From contig JALOOU010000031.1 of assembly GCA_025454255.1 (NCBI GenBank), positions 1 to 60,463 on the forward strand: a DNA stretch of 60,463 nucleotides, read 5' to 3'. The stretch comes from Desulfobacterales bacterium (GTDB lineage Bacteria; Desulfobacterota; Desulfobacteria; Desulfobacterales; SpSt-501). How positions within the stretch are numbered: position 1 is the stretch's first letter; every line of letters starts with the position of its first letter. Shown here piece by piece: positions 3,484-37,528 of this stretch. Below the pieces are notes generated by a model. It made no database searches. It was not told the DNA's origin and saw only the letters and a list, made by a program, of their open reading frames with translations. A program made the position numbers and the translations under genes.

Positions 3484-3512
3484 TTGACAGCTATTTTCGC
3501 CTGGTGTATGGC
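3484..3512 (+). promoter_or_regulatory. Possible sigma-70 promoter ahead of repeat copy 1
   Basis: A perfect TTGACA at 3484-3489 is followed after 17 bases by TATGGC at 3507-3512, a poor -10. Transcription would begin near 3519 and run into the repeat element at 3549-3686. The weak -10 makes this only suggestive. Confidence 0.3.
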
Positions 3513-3548
3513 GTCAATATTATCAAACTGTATTTACAATCACTTGAA

Positions 3549-3686
3549 GTGGTTTCACAACCTCGGATCACGGTTGCGGGCAAGGCGGGAGGCCGATTCG
3601 AAAGCGCAGCAACCTGAATTAGGTCGTGAGCGCCTTCGCGAGGCCTGCCATCCCGCCACGGCGGGACCCCCAGCCGTCAGACGGGG
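3549..3686 (+). repeat. Dispersed ~138-bp structured repeat, copy 1
   Basis: This intergenic element matches 26516-26652 along its whole length, with short blocks of identity such as CCTCGGATC, CGGTTGCGG, TCGAAAG, GCAACCT, GCGAGGCC, GCCATCCCGCC and AGACGGGG. Small insertions or deletions between the copies break any common reading frame. An outer stem (CACAACCT with AGGTCGTG, one mismatch), an inner stem (GGTTGC with GCAACC) and a 3' hairpin (TCCCGC/GCGGGA, loop CACG) can be drawn. It could be a non-coding RNA or a mobile palindromic repeat. The strand is assigned only from the candidate promoter upstream. Confidence 0.6.
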
Positions 3687-3741
3687 TTAGTCAACCACTT
3701 TCTATAAAATCGCCGCTCGGATACCGGGGAACCCTCTCCGC

Positions 3742-5358
3742 ATGAAACCAACGGTTGTGCGCATTGTGCTGGCGTTGCTTCCATTGGGGGCGGCGCTTTA
3801 CGCCCTTGCGGCCGGCCAGGACGCCAACTGGGACCTGCGCAATTACCACTTCTACAACCCCTTCGCCTTCCTCACCGGCCGCATGGGGCACGACATCGCC
3901 GTCTCCCACGTGGCAACCTATTACAACCCGTTGATGTATGTACCGTTCTACTGGGCGGTCACCTCGCTTCCGCCCAAGGCTGTGGGGTTTTTGCTCGGAT
4001 GGATCCCCGGGCTGAATGTCTGGCTGCTGTACGGCATTGCCCGCAACTCAGTCGATCTCGGCGGCAGTCGGCGGACCGCCTGGTTTTGTCTGGCCGCGGC
4101 GACGGTCGGGATGCTGGGCGTTGTGAACCTGGCCGAAATCGGAACGAGCTACGGCGACAACGTGCTCAGCCTGCTGGTGTTGGCCGCTGTCTGGCTGATC
4201 GTGCGGTTCCGGGAGCGACTCGGCGCTTCTGTGAGGTCCGCCTGGCCGATCGCCGGCGCCGCGGGGCTTCTGACCGGAGTCGCCTTCGGCTTGAAGCTGC
4301 CGTTCGCGGTTTACGCCGTCGCGCTCTGCGCTGCCCTTTTCGGGCTGAGCCTGCCGTGGCGCCGACGCCTTCTGGTGGCCGTTGTCTTCGGCTTGGGGGT
4401 ACTGGCCGGCGCGGCGGCCTCCGGCGGATTCTGGGTGCTGGAGATGTGGCAGCGTTTCCAGAACCCCGTGTTTCCCTATTTCAACCAGTATTTCGAGTCG
4501 CCCTGGGGCACGATCGGCTCCTACCGCGACGAGCGTTTTATCCCCACGGGCCTGCTCATGTGGCTCTCTTTTCCCATCTGGTTCAACATCGACCCGATGC
4601 AGGTCGGCGAGGTGGACTTCAGGGATCTGCGCTTTCCCCTGCTCTACCTGTTGATGATCGGCCTGCTGTTGAAGACCGCGGTGACCTTTGTGAAGCGGCC
4701 TTCGCCGGGCGGGCAGCCCGCGGCTGAAAGTTCGGGCCGTATGCCCGTCACGCCCTTTTTCATCATTTTCATGCTGGCGGCCTTCATGCTCTGGATGAAG
4801 CTCTTTGCCGTCTATCGCTACCTGATGGTAGGCGAGATGCTGGTGCCGTTGACGGTGTTCCTCGTGCTGGGCGCCCTGCTGCAGAACCGCCGGCGGCAGC
4901 TTCAGGCCGCTCTGGCCGGATTCGTCCTGCTGCTGGTCACCCTCGTTCCCGGCGATTGGGGACGCAGGCCCTGGGCGGCCGATTACTTCGGAGTCGAACC
5001 GCCGCCGCTCGCGGAGCCGGAGAGCGCCATCGTGCTGATGACCGGGCATGATGCCATGGCCTACCTGATTCCTTTCTTCCCGCAACCGGTGCGCTTCCTG
5101 CGCATCCAGGGGTATGTCACCGGTCCGTCGACCTCCCCCAATCAAACCGATCGGCTGATGCGGGAGATCATCGCCCGCCACGACGGGAAGCTCTTCATCC
5201 TGTACCGGGCCTACGAGGAGTGGCATGCCATGACCGCGTTGAGCTCCTATCATCTCGAGGCGGACCGCGACGCCTGCACCCCTTTTGTGCCGCGGATCGA
5301 ACCCCAACCGGAGCACCCGTTTTATCTATGCAGCGTAAGGAAGATCCAATCGCCGTGA
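3742..5358 (+). CDS. Polytopic membrane protein, GT-C glycosyltransferase-like
   Basis: A 538-residue protein with roughly ten to twelve membrane segments and a soluble C-terminal domain of about 120 residues. Near the N-terminus is 'GQDANWDLRNYHFYNPFAF', whose acidic residues just after the first membrane segment recall the first-loop catalytic motif of lipid-linked-sugar GT-C transferases. That comparison is inference; I do not recognise a named family. The stop overlaps the GTG of the following GT2 gene by four bases (GTGA), so the pair is translationally coupled. Together they suggest transfer of a sugar from a polyprenyl carrier to an envelope glycan or protein. Confidence 0.65.
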   Translation: MKPTVVRIVLALLPLGAALYALAAGQDANWDLRNYHFYNPFAFLTGRMGHDIAVSHVATYYNPLMYVPFYWAVTSLPPKAVGFLLGWIPGLNVWLLYGIARNSVDLGGSRRTAWFCLAAATVGMLGVVNLAEIGTSYGDNVLSLLVLAAVWLIVRFRERLGASVRSAWPIAGAAGLLTGVAFGLKLPFAVYAVALCAALFGLSLPWRRRLLVAVVFGLGVLAGAAASGGFWVLEMWQRFQNPVFPYFNQYFESPWGTIGSYRDERFIPTGLLMWLSFPIWFNIDPMQVGEVDFRDLRFPLLYLLMIGLLLKTAVTFVKRPSPGGQPAAESSGRMPVTPFFIIFMLAAFMLWMKLFAVYRYLMVGEMLVPLTVFLVLGALLQNRRRQLQAALAGFVLLLVTLVPGDWGRRPWAADYFGVEPPPLAEPESAIVLMTGHDAMAYLIPFFPQPVRFLRIQGYVTGPSTSPNQTDRLMREIIARHDGKLFILYRAYEEWHAMTALSSYHLEADRDACTPFVPRIEPQPEHPFYLCSVRKIQSP

Positions 5359-25208: not shown

Positions 25209-25525
25209 AGTCCGCCCGCCGAATCGCCGATACCAACCCGTGACTCCAGTGGGCTCCTGTTCATCCGCGGTGTCCTTCGGCCCATGCCGTCGTCCTCGTT
25301 CGCCGCACGCCTCGGCGCAGACCCGCTGCGCCTCCGCTTGCGACAGCGCTGCGGCCTTGGCCTGAACCGAAGCTCGCCCTTGCTGGACGAACTCCAGTTG
25401 ACGCCGTCCGCCCGCCGGTCCGGTTCTTGCCGGAGCTCACCCAGCCGGGCAGCGCCCGAACGTTGCTTGCAAAGGATGCTTTTGGTATTATGGTGACTTC
25501 AGGTATCACCCAGGAAACCGATCCG
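25209..25525. other. Intergenic region, no gene seen
   Basis: Only overlapping shadow frames occur here. ATG 25490 and GTG 25493 could extend the PHP protein at its N-terminus, but the added residues have no family support. Confidence 0.4.
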
Positions 25526-26434
25526 ATGGCCGTCGACACCACCCAGCGCATCTTGTTCGAGCGCCCCAATCTGCCGGAGCTGAAGCGGCACTATGCGGTG
25601 GTCGACATGCATTTCCACAGCGAGCTCTCCGACGGCCACGCCTCGATCGAGGCGATCGCCATGCGTGCCGCAGAGCTGGGCATCGGCATCGCCGTGACCG
25701 ACCACAACTGCATCCACGGTGCGGTGGAGATCGACCGCTTCAAGGAGGTGTTCAGCATCCCCGGCATCGAGTTGACCTCCTATGAAGGCACCCATCTGCT
25801 GGTCTATTTCTACGACATCAAAAGCCTGCTGCGTTTCTACAGCCGCCACGTCCAGCCATTCATGGGCGCTGAAATCATGTCCTCCCTGTCTTTGGAAATG
25901 GAGGACTTGATCGGCCGGGCGCGCCAATACGAGACGGTGGTCATCTTTCCCCACCCCTACTGCGGAACGTATACCGGGGTGCACAACCCCTACTTCACCA
26001 ACGGCCGCTTCGACCAGATCCTCGCCTTGGCCGACGGAGTGGAGGTCATCAACTCCGAAAACCTCAACAAGTGGAATCTGAAGAGCGCCTTGCTGGGCTT
26101 CAACCTGAACAAGGCCATCACCGGCGGCAGCGACGGGCACCGGCTTGTCCAGATGGGGCGCGTGGTCACGATAGCCGGCTGCGCCTGGAGGCGCCGCTCC
26201 TTTCTGGACGCCATCCGGCGCCGCCGCACCCGGGTCATCGGCAAGGAGATCGACATCCTGCGCAAGATGACATCAAGCGGTGCGAAACTGCGCTCGAGCA
26301 TGCGCCACTACCCGGACCTGGTCCAAAAAAACCTGCGCTACCTCAACACCACCTCCCGCGCCATCCGCGACAACGTGAAGCGCTCCCTGAACGAACGCCT
26401 GCGCGACCACCGTCAGCGCCACGGGCGCACCTGA
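25526..26434 (+). CDS. PHP-domain metal-dependent phosphoesterase
   Basis: About 302 residues from ATG 25526, behind AGGAAA. Metal-binding motifs of the PHP superfamily are in order: 'VVDMHFHSELSDGHAS', 'VTDHNCIHGAVE', 'ELTSYEGTHLL', 'IFPHPYCG' and 'ITGGSDGHRL'. The C-terminal 80 residues are basic and outside the PHP core. Relatives hydrolyse nucleoside or oligoribonucleotide phosphates; the substrate here is unknown. The gene is monocistronic and precedes the second repeat copy. Confidence 0.85.
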   Translation: MAVDTTQRILFERPNLPELKRHYAVVDMHFHSELSDGHASIEAIAMRAAELGIGIAVTDHNCIHGAVEIDRFKEVFSIPGIELTSYEGTHLLVYFYDIKSLLRFYSRHVQPFMGAEIMSSLSLEMEDLIGRARQYETVVIFPHPYCGTYTGVHNPYFTNGRFDQILALADGVEVINSENLNKWNLKSALLGFNLNKAITGGSDGHRLVQMGRVVTIAGCAWRRRSFLDAIRRRRTRVIGKEIDILRKMTSSGAKLRSSMRHYPDLVQKNLRYLNTTSRAIRDNVKRSLNERLRDHRQRHGRT

Positions 26435-26515
26435 GGCCGGCCGCATCCCTGCGGCATGCCGCCGCGATCCGCCGCCCGCGAAAGAAGATCTTTTCACCAC
26501 GGCAAATGAATAGAG

Positions 26516-26652
26516 GTGGTTACACGGCCTCGGATCGCGGTTGCGGCCGGGGCACCGGCCGAATCGAAAGTGCCGCAACCTCAACCGGTGGTGCGCACGT
26601 GCGCGAGGCCCGCCATCCCGCCGGGCCAGGCCCCCCGGCCGGTTAGACGGGG
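26516..26652 (+). repeat. Dispersed ~137-bp structured repeat, copy 2
   Basis: This copy is homologous to 3549-3686. The inner stem is extended to nine perfect pairs (GGTTGCGGC with GCCGCAACC). A loop that is GCG-CCTT-CGC in copy 1 is the 12-base palindrome GCGCACGTGCGC here, so sequence changes but pairing stays. Relative to copy 1 there are single-base indels in at least three places. It lies between convergent genes. I see no clear promoter for it and no target-site duplication. Confidence 0.6.
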
Positions 26653-26716
26653 CGGGAAACCGCTCTTAGCGCCAGACACGCTGCCGATGGGGCAACCCGG
26701 CGGGAGCGACGGCGTT

Positions 26717-27856
26717 TTAGGCGCGCGGGGATTTCGTATCATCCTCGGCCAGCAGAATTCGAGCGGCCTTACCCGGCGGCGGGTCGCCCGCAGCGGGGGG
26801 CGCCCTCTCCGTCAGGACATCCTGAAACGCCACCCCGTAAATCTCCCACACCGTGACCAGGAGGGCGGCCAGGATCGGGCCGATGATGATTCCGGCCGGC
26901 CCGAACATCAGAATCCCTCCCAGTGTTCCGAAAAGGATCAGCAGCTCGTGGATGCGGGTGTCTTTGCCCACCAGCCGGGGCCGCAGAAACGTGTCGATGC
27001 TGCTGATGACCACCACGCCGAAGAGCAGCAGGCCGACCCCTTTGCCGTAGCTGGCGCTCATGATCAGGATGATGCTGGCCGGCAGCCACACGATGCCCGC
27101 GCCGATACCGGGGATCAGGGAGGTCACCCCGGCCACCGTTCCCCAGAAAACAGCGCTCGGGATGCCAAGGACGGCGAACGCCCCCCCCGTGAGCGTGCCC
27201 TGGAGGATGCCGATGACCGCCACGCCCTTGATAGTGGCCCGGGTTACCGAGGTGAACTTCTCGAGCATGCGCTGCTGATCGCCCGGCTTCAACGGCAGGT
27301 AATACAAGATTTTGTTCAAGATGCGCTCGCCGTCCACCAGGAAGAAAAACATCGTGTAGAAAAAGATGAACAGCAGGAAAATGAACTGGGCCGTCATGAC
27401 CGTCACCGATGAGAGGCTGTTGATCAGGTAGCTGCTCAAGCGGCCCACCAGCTCACCGGCTTTTTGGAGAATCGTCTCCTTGTAGGGGAGAATACGGTCG
27501 TAGAACGGGATGGCCTCCATCCAGTCGGAGAAGGCCGCCGGCTCGGCGATCTGCCGCTGAATCCAGGGCTTGACGGTCTGGCTGACCTTGATGGCCTCGC
27601 CGGTCACCGCCCCCAACAGGGCTGCCAGCGGTAAAACAACGGCAAAGAAGATCACCAGCAGGGTCACCAGGGCGGCCGGGCTGCGGCGGCGGCCGAAGCC
27701 CTGCCGCAGCCGGCGGTAGAGAGGCCACGCCAGCCCCGAGAAAATCGCCGCCATGAGAATGGTCATCAGAAAGGGAAGGATCATGGCAGTGAACACCGAG
27801 GTGATGAACAACAAGAGCAGCAGCACGCAGGCTTTGTTGAAATTTTCCTGGCTCAT
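26717..27856 (-). CDS. AI-2E family (UPF0118) permease
   Basis: A 379-residue protein with about eight membrane segments and the large periplasmic region between segments three and four typical of the family. The signature 'GIPSAVFWGTVAGVTSLIPG' and 'IDTFLRPRLVGK' are conserved. Family members transport varied solutes; only a few are linked to autoinducer-2, so the name is not a function. A short Ala/Pro-rich tail follows the last segment. It is the last gene of a minus-strand run with ubiG upstream. Confidence 0.9.
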   Translation of the reverse strand: MSQENFNKACVLLLLLFITSVFTAMILPFLMTILMAAIFSGLAWPLYRRLRQGFGRRRSPAALVTLLVIFFAVVLPLAALLGAVTGEAIKVSQTVKPWIQRQIAEPAAFSDWMEAIPFYDRILPYKETILQKAGELVGRLSSYLINSLSSVTVMTAQFIFLLFIFFYTMFFFLVDGERILNKILYYLPLKPGDQQRMLEKFTSVTRATIKGVAVIGILQGTLTGGAFAVLGIPSAVFWGTVAGVTSLIPGIGAGIVWLPASIILIMSASYGKGVGLLLFGVVVISSIDTFLRPRLVGKDTRIHELLILFGTLGGILMFGPAGIIIGPILAALLVTVWEIYGVAFQDVLTERAPPAAGDPPPGKAARILLAEDDTKSPRA

Positions 27857-37385: not shown

Positions 37386-37528
37386 AACCGAGCCCGTATG
37401 GCATGCCTCGCGAATATGCCCCAAGCGACGAACCGATCAGCGCAGGCCGCTGGGCGATCGCTGCCGTTTGAACGTTTTAGACGCAACAGCTGCCGATCGG
37501 GTTTACGACCCGGGTCAAAAAGAAGAAG

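Follow-up and report, generated by a model that had tools for sequence, protein, structure and literature searches.

The two related intergenic stretches found in the window, which is the whole 60,463-nucleotide sequence analysed here (Desulfobacterales bacterium, assembly GCA_025454255.1, contig JALOOU010000031.1), are probably copies of a MITE-like element that encodes a rod-shaped RNA and belongs to a superfamily including the ERIC repeats. The initial annotation had suggested that they are a new structured RNA or else a mobile repeat. Both suggestions are supported at once by the many intergenic copies, the conserved pairing and the lack of an Rfam match.

Copies of the element in the window

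The two stretches can be aligned over their full length, and comparison of copy 1 with the window and 40 fetched loci by BLAST recovered copy 2 at 77% identity (E 4e-25). The copies had been placed at 3549-3686 and 26516-26652; both are real, with slightly wider limits, and their intergenic position is borne out by the neighbouring ORFs. The features are listed below with scores of covariance models R1 and R2; A6 is an alignment of 46 cross-phylum sequences.

3484-3512, + strand: sigma70-like promoter (TTGACA at 3484-3489, 17 nt, TATGGC), predicted from sequence and conserved in the orthologous locus of genome G001
3544-3703, + strand: copy 1, the 159-nt type with internal hairpin (R1 165.7 bits; R2 61.6 bits, E 2.9e-11)
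3578-3587, + strand: core motif GGGCAAGGCG of copy 1, 5' side of an internal loop (A6)
3600-3609, + strand: core motif GAAAGCGCAG of copy 1, 5' side of a GA-type internal loop (A6 and own copies)
3625-3631, + strand: core motif CGTGAGC of copy 1, 3' side of the GA-type internal loop (TGAG in 44-46 of the 46 rows of A6)
3651-3666, + strand: extra hairpin TCCCGCCACGGCGGGA of copy 1 (alignment of own and relatives' copies)
26511-26668, + strand: copy 2, decayed (R1 107 bits; R2 17.1 bits, E 0.16)

The stretch 3549-3698 of copy 1 has a folding energy of -76.4 kcal/mol (z -5.0 against shuffles). The fold of 26516-26663 in copy 2 is not better than shuffles (z -0.3), and copy 2 is therefore considered a decayed copy that has lost the fold. 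Across A6, five of the six CAAGGC columns are kept in 44-46 rows, while the C, G, A and G of CG.AG are present in all 46. The extra hairpin is missing from six of the 39 own-genome copies in alignment A2, four times by an 11-base loss and twice by a loss of about 37 bases. Among relatives it is found in two copies read from genome G006 and is missing from the other printed copies, except for L105, which carries a different insert.

The TTGACA promoter-like sequence noticed upstream of copy 1 is present, but it belongs to the downstream gene. The orthologous locus of G001, a genome of the same genus, has kept this promoter and the coding sequence on either side but has no element; the promoter is therefore assigned to that gene and not to the element. 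Copy 1 would lie within the 5' leader produced from this predicted promoter, upstream of a 538-aa ORF (3742-5358) without a Pfam or NCBIfam match. Copy 2 is flanked by a PHP-domain gene (25427-26434, + strand) and an AI-2E transporter gene (26717-27856, - strand). Weak partial matches to the element models were also seen at 25273-25371 and 37394-37460, both on the - strand (R2 E 0.036, nhmmer E 0.038, short of the inclusion threshold), which are either chance matches or decayed fragments.

Copy number in the source genome and its relatives

The source genome (4.11 Mb in 194 contigs, 87% complete) yielded 40 copies by BLAST, with 40 of 107 candidates scored. Model R1 was trained on A2, comprising 38 of these 40 copies and window copy 2; L001 (which is window copy 1), L027 and L029 were left out. 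Applied to the same genome, with 150 of 4307 candidates scored, R1 gave 75 rows at E<=0.01, the weakest few of which may be chance matches. Twelve of the rows hit a palindrome already counted on its other strand, which leaves about 63 distinct places. The initial annotation had suggested looking for numerous intergenic copies whose pairing is conserved; the copies are seen in these places, and the pairing in the covariation across genomes described below.

The element is an imperfect palindrome of 146-159 nt. Its own-genome consensus is 159 bp long, with ends TAGAAGTGGTTTCA..TGAAACCACTTCTA, a fold of -93 kcal/mol and a 14-bp perfect terminal inverted repeat; the cross-genome alignment A4 has 22 outer pairs. 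Matches at E<=0.01 occurred in 19 of 40 genomes, the source genome included, of which at least one match in G012 (L070) looks like a chance palindrome. The relatives' printed copies are mostly 144-149 nt long. The element is patchily present within the genus, where two of seven genomes including the source (G002 and G003) have no match, and near-identical copies were found in G018, G655 and G1291. The end sequence of G018, allowing up to two mismatches, occurs 135 times, as against once in a reversed control; its copies are nearly identical and several lie at contig ends, which is taken as a sign of recent spread.

Two further observations concern these relatives. Locus L105 carries a 166-nt copy (1620-1785) with additional palindromic stretches in the apical region and in the 3' half. 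At loci L076, L079 and L112 of G018, several copies have a second repeat, of the ttgaaccacgaagggcacgaagg type, next to them, as though both kinds of repeat landed at the same places in that genome.

Conserved fold of one strand

Pairing was examined in 30 sequences, obtained from 55 sequences of 18 genomes by removing those at least 85% identical. From the 55-row set L070 (the chance match), L105 (inserted stretch) and L072 (contains N) had been dropped and three own copies added, which brought the set back to 55. Alignment A4 consists of 29 of the chosen sequences and the own copy L020, which had earlier been removed by the identity filter and which replaces a G006 row. In A4, aligned by MAFFT and not fitted to a structure, the structure derived from this same alignment comprises 55 pairs; 90.1% of cells pair and 45 of the 55 pairs change on both sides. 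Both-side changes amount to 275 cells, compared with 76 +/- 7 after shuffling, and the covariation score is 0.553, compared with 0.214 for shuffled and at most 0.137 for slid alignments. Applied to the own-genome alignment, RNAalifold returned almost no structure; a fold was obtained first with a subset of 15 sequences and later with the cross-genome set.

The broader alignment A6, which is fitted to the model and thus biased towards it, has both-side changes at 53 of the 55 pairs (779 cells, compared with 237 +/- 14 after shuffling); it omits rows of alignment A5 above E 6e-10 (antisense and weak) and some sources. In A6 the columns with a conservation of 93% or more all fall within the core, and many of them belong to internal loops. 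G-U pairs outnumber A-C mismatches by 154 to 39 in the helices of the 30 chosen sequences and by 110 to 21 in the core of A6, and the + strand folds better in 27 of the 30. Such an excess of G-U over A-C is not expected of double-stranded DNA sites, and therefore the alignments show one strand folding under selection. The folding strand would be either RNA or single-stranded DNA, of which RNA is the simpler reading.

These data also bear on the reading of the element as an ordinary foldback MITE without RNA function, whose arms are transposase sites and whose pairing is renewed by quasi-palindrome template switching. It would agree with the signs of DNA transposition given below (a flank preference and the direct repeats in G1291) and with the decay of the own copies, and perfect arms could arise by quasi-palindrome repair; the wobble asymmetry is also weaker in the outer arms (53:21) than in the inner helices (101:18). 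However, template switching would erase unpaired loops, yet the internal loops are among the most conserved positions across phyla, and the asymmetry of the core is unexpected for a double-stranded site. A foldback MITE of this kind is thus distinctly unlikely, and a selected fold, most simply of RNA, is preferred.

Distribution among bacteria

A search of GTDB genomes with the core pattern found at least 116 stretches, for which 80 loci were returned. These include Pseudomonas viridiflava, P. turukhanskensis, Nitrosomonas eutropha, Edaphovirga cremea, Magnetococcales, Woeseiaceae, Rikenellaceae, Bacteroidales, Clostridia MAGs and many Deltaproteobacteria/Desulfobacterota. With model R2, 79 of these 80 loci score E<=1e-6 and the remaining one 0.046, and most matches are full-length, hence extending beyond the pattern itself. 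Ten genomes that were tested contained 2 to 59 rows each, some of which may be the second strand of one place; their presence is therefore not explained by a single contaminating contig.

The frequency of the element was determined in even samples of four phyla, each including the centre genome and a few others that had supplied model sequences, with only the best 7-10 candidates per genome scored under strict filters. At E<=1e-4 the element was found in 87 of 395 genomes from the phylum of the window (R2) and, with model R3, in 125 of 299 from the phylum of P. viridiflava, 50 of 296 from that of a Rikenellaceae MAG and 23 of 299 from that of a Clostridia MAG. The breadth of the family is evident from these sampled sequences. 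The core pattern had no match among the viral contigs of IMG/VR, so carriage by phages is not supported by the core pattern.

In P. viridiflava (G430), versions that consist of the core only, about 83 bases long, also occur frequently, and locus L319 of this genome carries three head-to-tail copies at 1203-1637 with a period of about 149 bases.

Relationship to known families and to ERIC

The element had not been recognised as a known family, and no Rfam match over it was found: Rfam 15, including permissive searches, gave none in the window, 19 relatives' loci gave two sub-threshold matches and 13 cross-phylum loci gave two tRNAs, none of these lying over the element. A hit to a known family had been named as an outcome that would refute the initial reading; Rfam gave none, ERIC included, but by models R2 and R3 ERIC appears to be a distant relative, which in part amounts to such a hit, of an unforeseen kind.

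Strain typing has relied on ERIC repeats for a long time, and we know of no established origin or mover for them. The similarity of the ERIC primer sequences to the core of the element served as the lead. A structure-free profile (nhmmer) matched neither of two ERIC loci, and R2 gave E-values of 0.002 and 0.01 on the same ERIC locus in two strains and only 18 bits on the E. coli ERIC. Model R3 was built without ERIC, its sole Enterobacterales row, from Edaphovirga (L251), differing from the ERIC centre. It matched all six distinct ERIC loci tested, at up to 41.5 bits, with E-values, rough for these covariance models by the tool's own statement, of 4.4e-9 (Pantoea), 2.1e-7 (Klebsiella), 1.8e-5 (E. 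coli plasmid pEGY2), 9.1e-5 (E. coli ybhJ-ybhI), 1.6e-4 (Rahnella) and 0.0025 (E. coli F17EC0245); the next-best other match had an E-value of 0.82. Since a model free of ERIC matches every ERIC locus tested, ERIC looks like one branch of the superfamily.

Both families are long palindromes, and a model of this kind might score any rod, so that the match would reflect convergence or chance. In 48 kb of E. coli ERIC was the top match of the search (E 8e-4), but a REP array came second at 20.1 bits (E 0.01), and the link therefore rests on the stronger scores in Pantoea and Klebsiella. The failure of the structure-free profile and the low R2 score on the E. coli ERIC also fit a fortuitous match. 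Against it, R3 matches at ERIC itself in all six loci, and in the better-scoring ones the positions of AAGGC, GGAGC, GTGA and AACGC align. Convergence or chance is hence considered unlikely, and ERIC is likely, although not proven, to be a divergent enterobacterial branch of the same pan-bacterial superfamily. The element of the window is likely a relative of ERIC rather than a member of the 127-bp ERIC family.

Like ERIC (also IRU or RU-1, 127 bp), the element is a multi-copy intergenic imperfect palindrome of similar size with copies at the ends of coding sequences, and an earlier report describes inverted ends, target duplication and terminal TA for ERIC (PMC2229807). The two differ in short inserts that ERIC carries beside the GA-type loop, and in range: a 2024 review gives Enterobacteriaceae and Vibrionaceae for ERIC (PMC10969869), whereas the family of the window occurs throughout the window's order and phylum samples and in further groups. 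Literature searches, as far as abstracts and excerpts show, returned no report joining ERIC to elements of other phyla; a search for the core strings gave, among the matches listed, titles that look unrelated.

Ends, target sites and the search for a mover

Signs of mobility are seen at the ends of the element. The flanks of 94 copies have a palindromic preference TTGNT-TA-ANCAA, with single positions at 0.39-0.51, and the ends are mostly TA..TA. The junctions of the empty locus in G001 fit a TA duplication, approximately only, the flanks being 76-77% identical. In G1291, from the phylum of the Clostridia MAG, the ends are GTGC..CCTC; of ten copies examined, nine have perfect direct repeats of at least 5 bp on their two sides and the tenth has TATTA/TATCA. 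Target-site duplication is accordingly observed in G1291 and would apply to the window's own copies as well. That a single core goes with two classes of duplication points to different transposases, so that the element is probably moved by several transposases differing by host.

An exact empty site was not found in Pseudomonas, where 149 genomes were searched and the loci of 29 relatives were compared by BLAST: none of the 29 has an R3 match, and their spacers have diverged too far for the junction to be placed. One of these relatives is 72% identical over the whole query and lacks the element.

No autonomous transposon with the ends of the element was found in the stretches examined, namely in G018 and in 800 kb of the 3.72 Mb of G1291. 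A 1.6-kb candidate in G018, bounded by a full copy and, on the opposite side, by a solo end, contains an ORF that does not look transposase-like and was rejected; other solo ends in G018 look truncated. The close end pairs in the 800 kb of G1291 are small elements, and two wider one-mismatch pairs near 41-43 kb contain ORFs that by eye do not look transposase-like. A 3.5-kb end pair was also noted in G1291 near 2.315-2.319 Mb.

On contig 1 of G1291, two elements whose ends are the same or similar differ inside: of those at 263028-263247 and 2046136-2046298, one has an insert in the core and the other a tandem repeat replacing the core. The core may therefore be dispensable for movement.

In being short and non-coding with terminal inverted repeats, the element resembles a generic MITE. 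In PMC2229807, RUP, Correia/NEMIS and other TA-inserted MITEs are described as about 100-200 bp long with inverted ends and terminal TA, and their transcripts as folding into long stem loops, like the rod predicted for the element; they, compared by description, are listed there only for Streptococcus pneumoniae and Neisseria. Further reports describe multicopy, partly palindromic intergenic sequences in Geobacter metallireducens and G. bemidjiensis (PMC2700814, PMC2996986) and the Chunjie MITE of G. uraniireducens, which shares these traits and likewise comes from the old Deltaproteobacteria (PMC10969869). Some of the Geobacter repeat families, compared by description only, may be members.

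Relationship to Y1 transposases and REP sequences

In the source genome, two of five Y1 loci have a copy of the element within about 1.5 kb. Eight other element-bearing genomes gave 36 Y1 rows; 30 of these loci were fetched, and an R1 match within 1.5 kb was present in one of the 30. In G018 three of five Y1 matches have an element or end match within 1.6 kb, these being an element at no more than 0.1 kb (L155), an end match at 0.2 kb that R1 did not report and an element at 1.6 kb. Proximity in G018 keeps a RAYT link open there, and a link to Y1 is no general rule. G001 retains the synteny of the RAYT locus of the source genome, with the element absent. An origin from RAYT/REPIN was therefore set aside, though not disproved, given the single case among 30 other Y1 loci and the G001 locus.

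The REP-like nature suggested in the initial annotation did not hold, with a length of 146-159 bp as opposed to the 20-40 bp given for REP units in PMC3733652, and with no consistent Y1/RAYT link. REP and REPIN sequences with RAYT are likewise multi-copy extragenic palindromes thought to be moved by a trans-acting enzyme; the element differs in its much greater length, in the target duplication seen in a relative (G1291) and, G018 apart, in the inconsistent Y1 link.

These comparisons also concern the reading in which the fold acts as single-stranded DNA, recognised during mobility by a structure-specific enzyme as are IS200/IS605 ends, REP with RAYT and integron attC sites. G-T pairs are tolerated in DNA too, so the wobble asymmetry alone is no proof of RNA; the combination of a conserved core and arms that vary suggests that it is the structure that is recognised, and the Y1 proximity in the source genome and in G018 points the same way. 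To our knowledge, however, enzymes of the IS200/IS605, REP/RAYT and attC types make no target duplications, and 5-bp duplications are seen in G1291 and TA duplications fit elsewhere; the rarity of the element near Y1 loci of other genomes and its absence from the RAYT locus of G001 also argue against it. The probability of this reading is considered small, and RNA is retained as the form in which the core most likely folds.

The Y1 transposase domain was found in three proteins, each about 340 aa long, encoded at L047 1605-2624, L048 1567-2604 and L049 2081-3097. By eye, they appear to have a DnaA-like C-terminal helix-turn-helix.

Placement at stop codons

Copies of the element lie at the very ends of genes. 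The position of stop codons relative to the element was counted in two largely separate sets, with frames called crudely and some perhaps spurious. For the 91 copies of set 1, 97 frames open for at least 80 codons enter an element end, and in 31 of them the stop codon starts at base 1-3 of the element, 23 on the 3' side and 8 on the 5' side (binomial p 0.011); for the remaining 66 frames the split is 36 to 30. For the 96 copies of set 2, with frames of at least 150 codons, stops at -3 to +5 favour the 3' side over the 5' side by 23 to 4 (p 0.0003); those elsewhere split 13 to 18 at -60 to -4 and 11 to 2 inside the element at +6 to +140. In two of the seven ERIC loci fetched, the ERIC match begins at the base after the end of the coding sequence.

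Insertion at the TA of a stop codon may be tolerated because the element restores TAG, as we propose. The bias in orientation would reflect selection against a sense fold in the gene's own mRNA, which agrees with the report that in Yersinia ERIC changes mRNA stability in an orientation-dependent manner (PMC2229807).

Such placement could also mean that the element benefits the host, as a small RNA or as an element of mRNA 3' ends, and that after spreading by duplication it has been retained because of this function; the preferred orientation at gene ends and the Yersinia effect of ERIC are compatible with this. The same is true of L005 and L068, from two families, in both of which one and the same HD-domain gene has the element at its stop codon; the proteins are 69% identical, right through to their last residues, so the gene has not been cut short. 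Yet a comparison of the 400-base flanks of 91 copies with the loci collected gave this as the one shared site, with three further short flank matches, and presence within one genus is patchy (G002 and G003 being without a match). Maintenance for host benefit is accordingly given little credence, and a mobile element settling where it does least harm is the preferred explanation.

Proposed model and implications

According to the proposed model, the element would be a non-autonomous DNA element, its outer arms serving as inverted terminal repeats for a transposase supplied in trans. Insertion would duplicate TA in the group of the window and 5 bp in G1291, probably through different transposases in different hosts. 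Inside the arms lies the conserved core (GGCAAGGC / AAAGCGnAGC - apical hairpin - GTGAGCATTT / AACGCnGC), which, as compensatory changes and tolerated G-U pairs show, is kept as a fold of one strand, most likely RNA inside host transcripts, and may have a conserved partner. The element would settle at the very ends of genes, with the 3' end of the RNA mostly against the stop codon of a converging gene, probably because this does least harm. The ERIC repeats would be a divergent enterobacterial branch of this superfamily.

A wider proposal, put forward tentatively and held to be possible rather than probable, is that of a pan-bacterial RNA module riding inside MITEs. Its core would be kept in at least four phyla through a conserved factor that binds the transcripts, its arms would be swapped for the ends recognised by the transposase of each host, and ERIC would be the branch that was seen first.

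A conserved RNA core in elements with different ends and different duplications would represent an unusual form of selfish DNA. Should ERIC prove to be a branch of this family, which was detected at frequencies of about 8 to 42% in the genome samples from four phyla, comparison across the family could be used to test where ERIC came from, what moves it and which partner its core has, and much intergenic sequence of MAGs and isolates, forming a large class, could be annotated with one covariance model.
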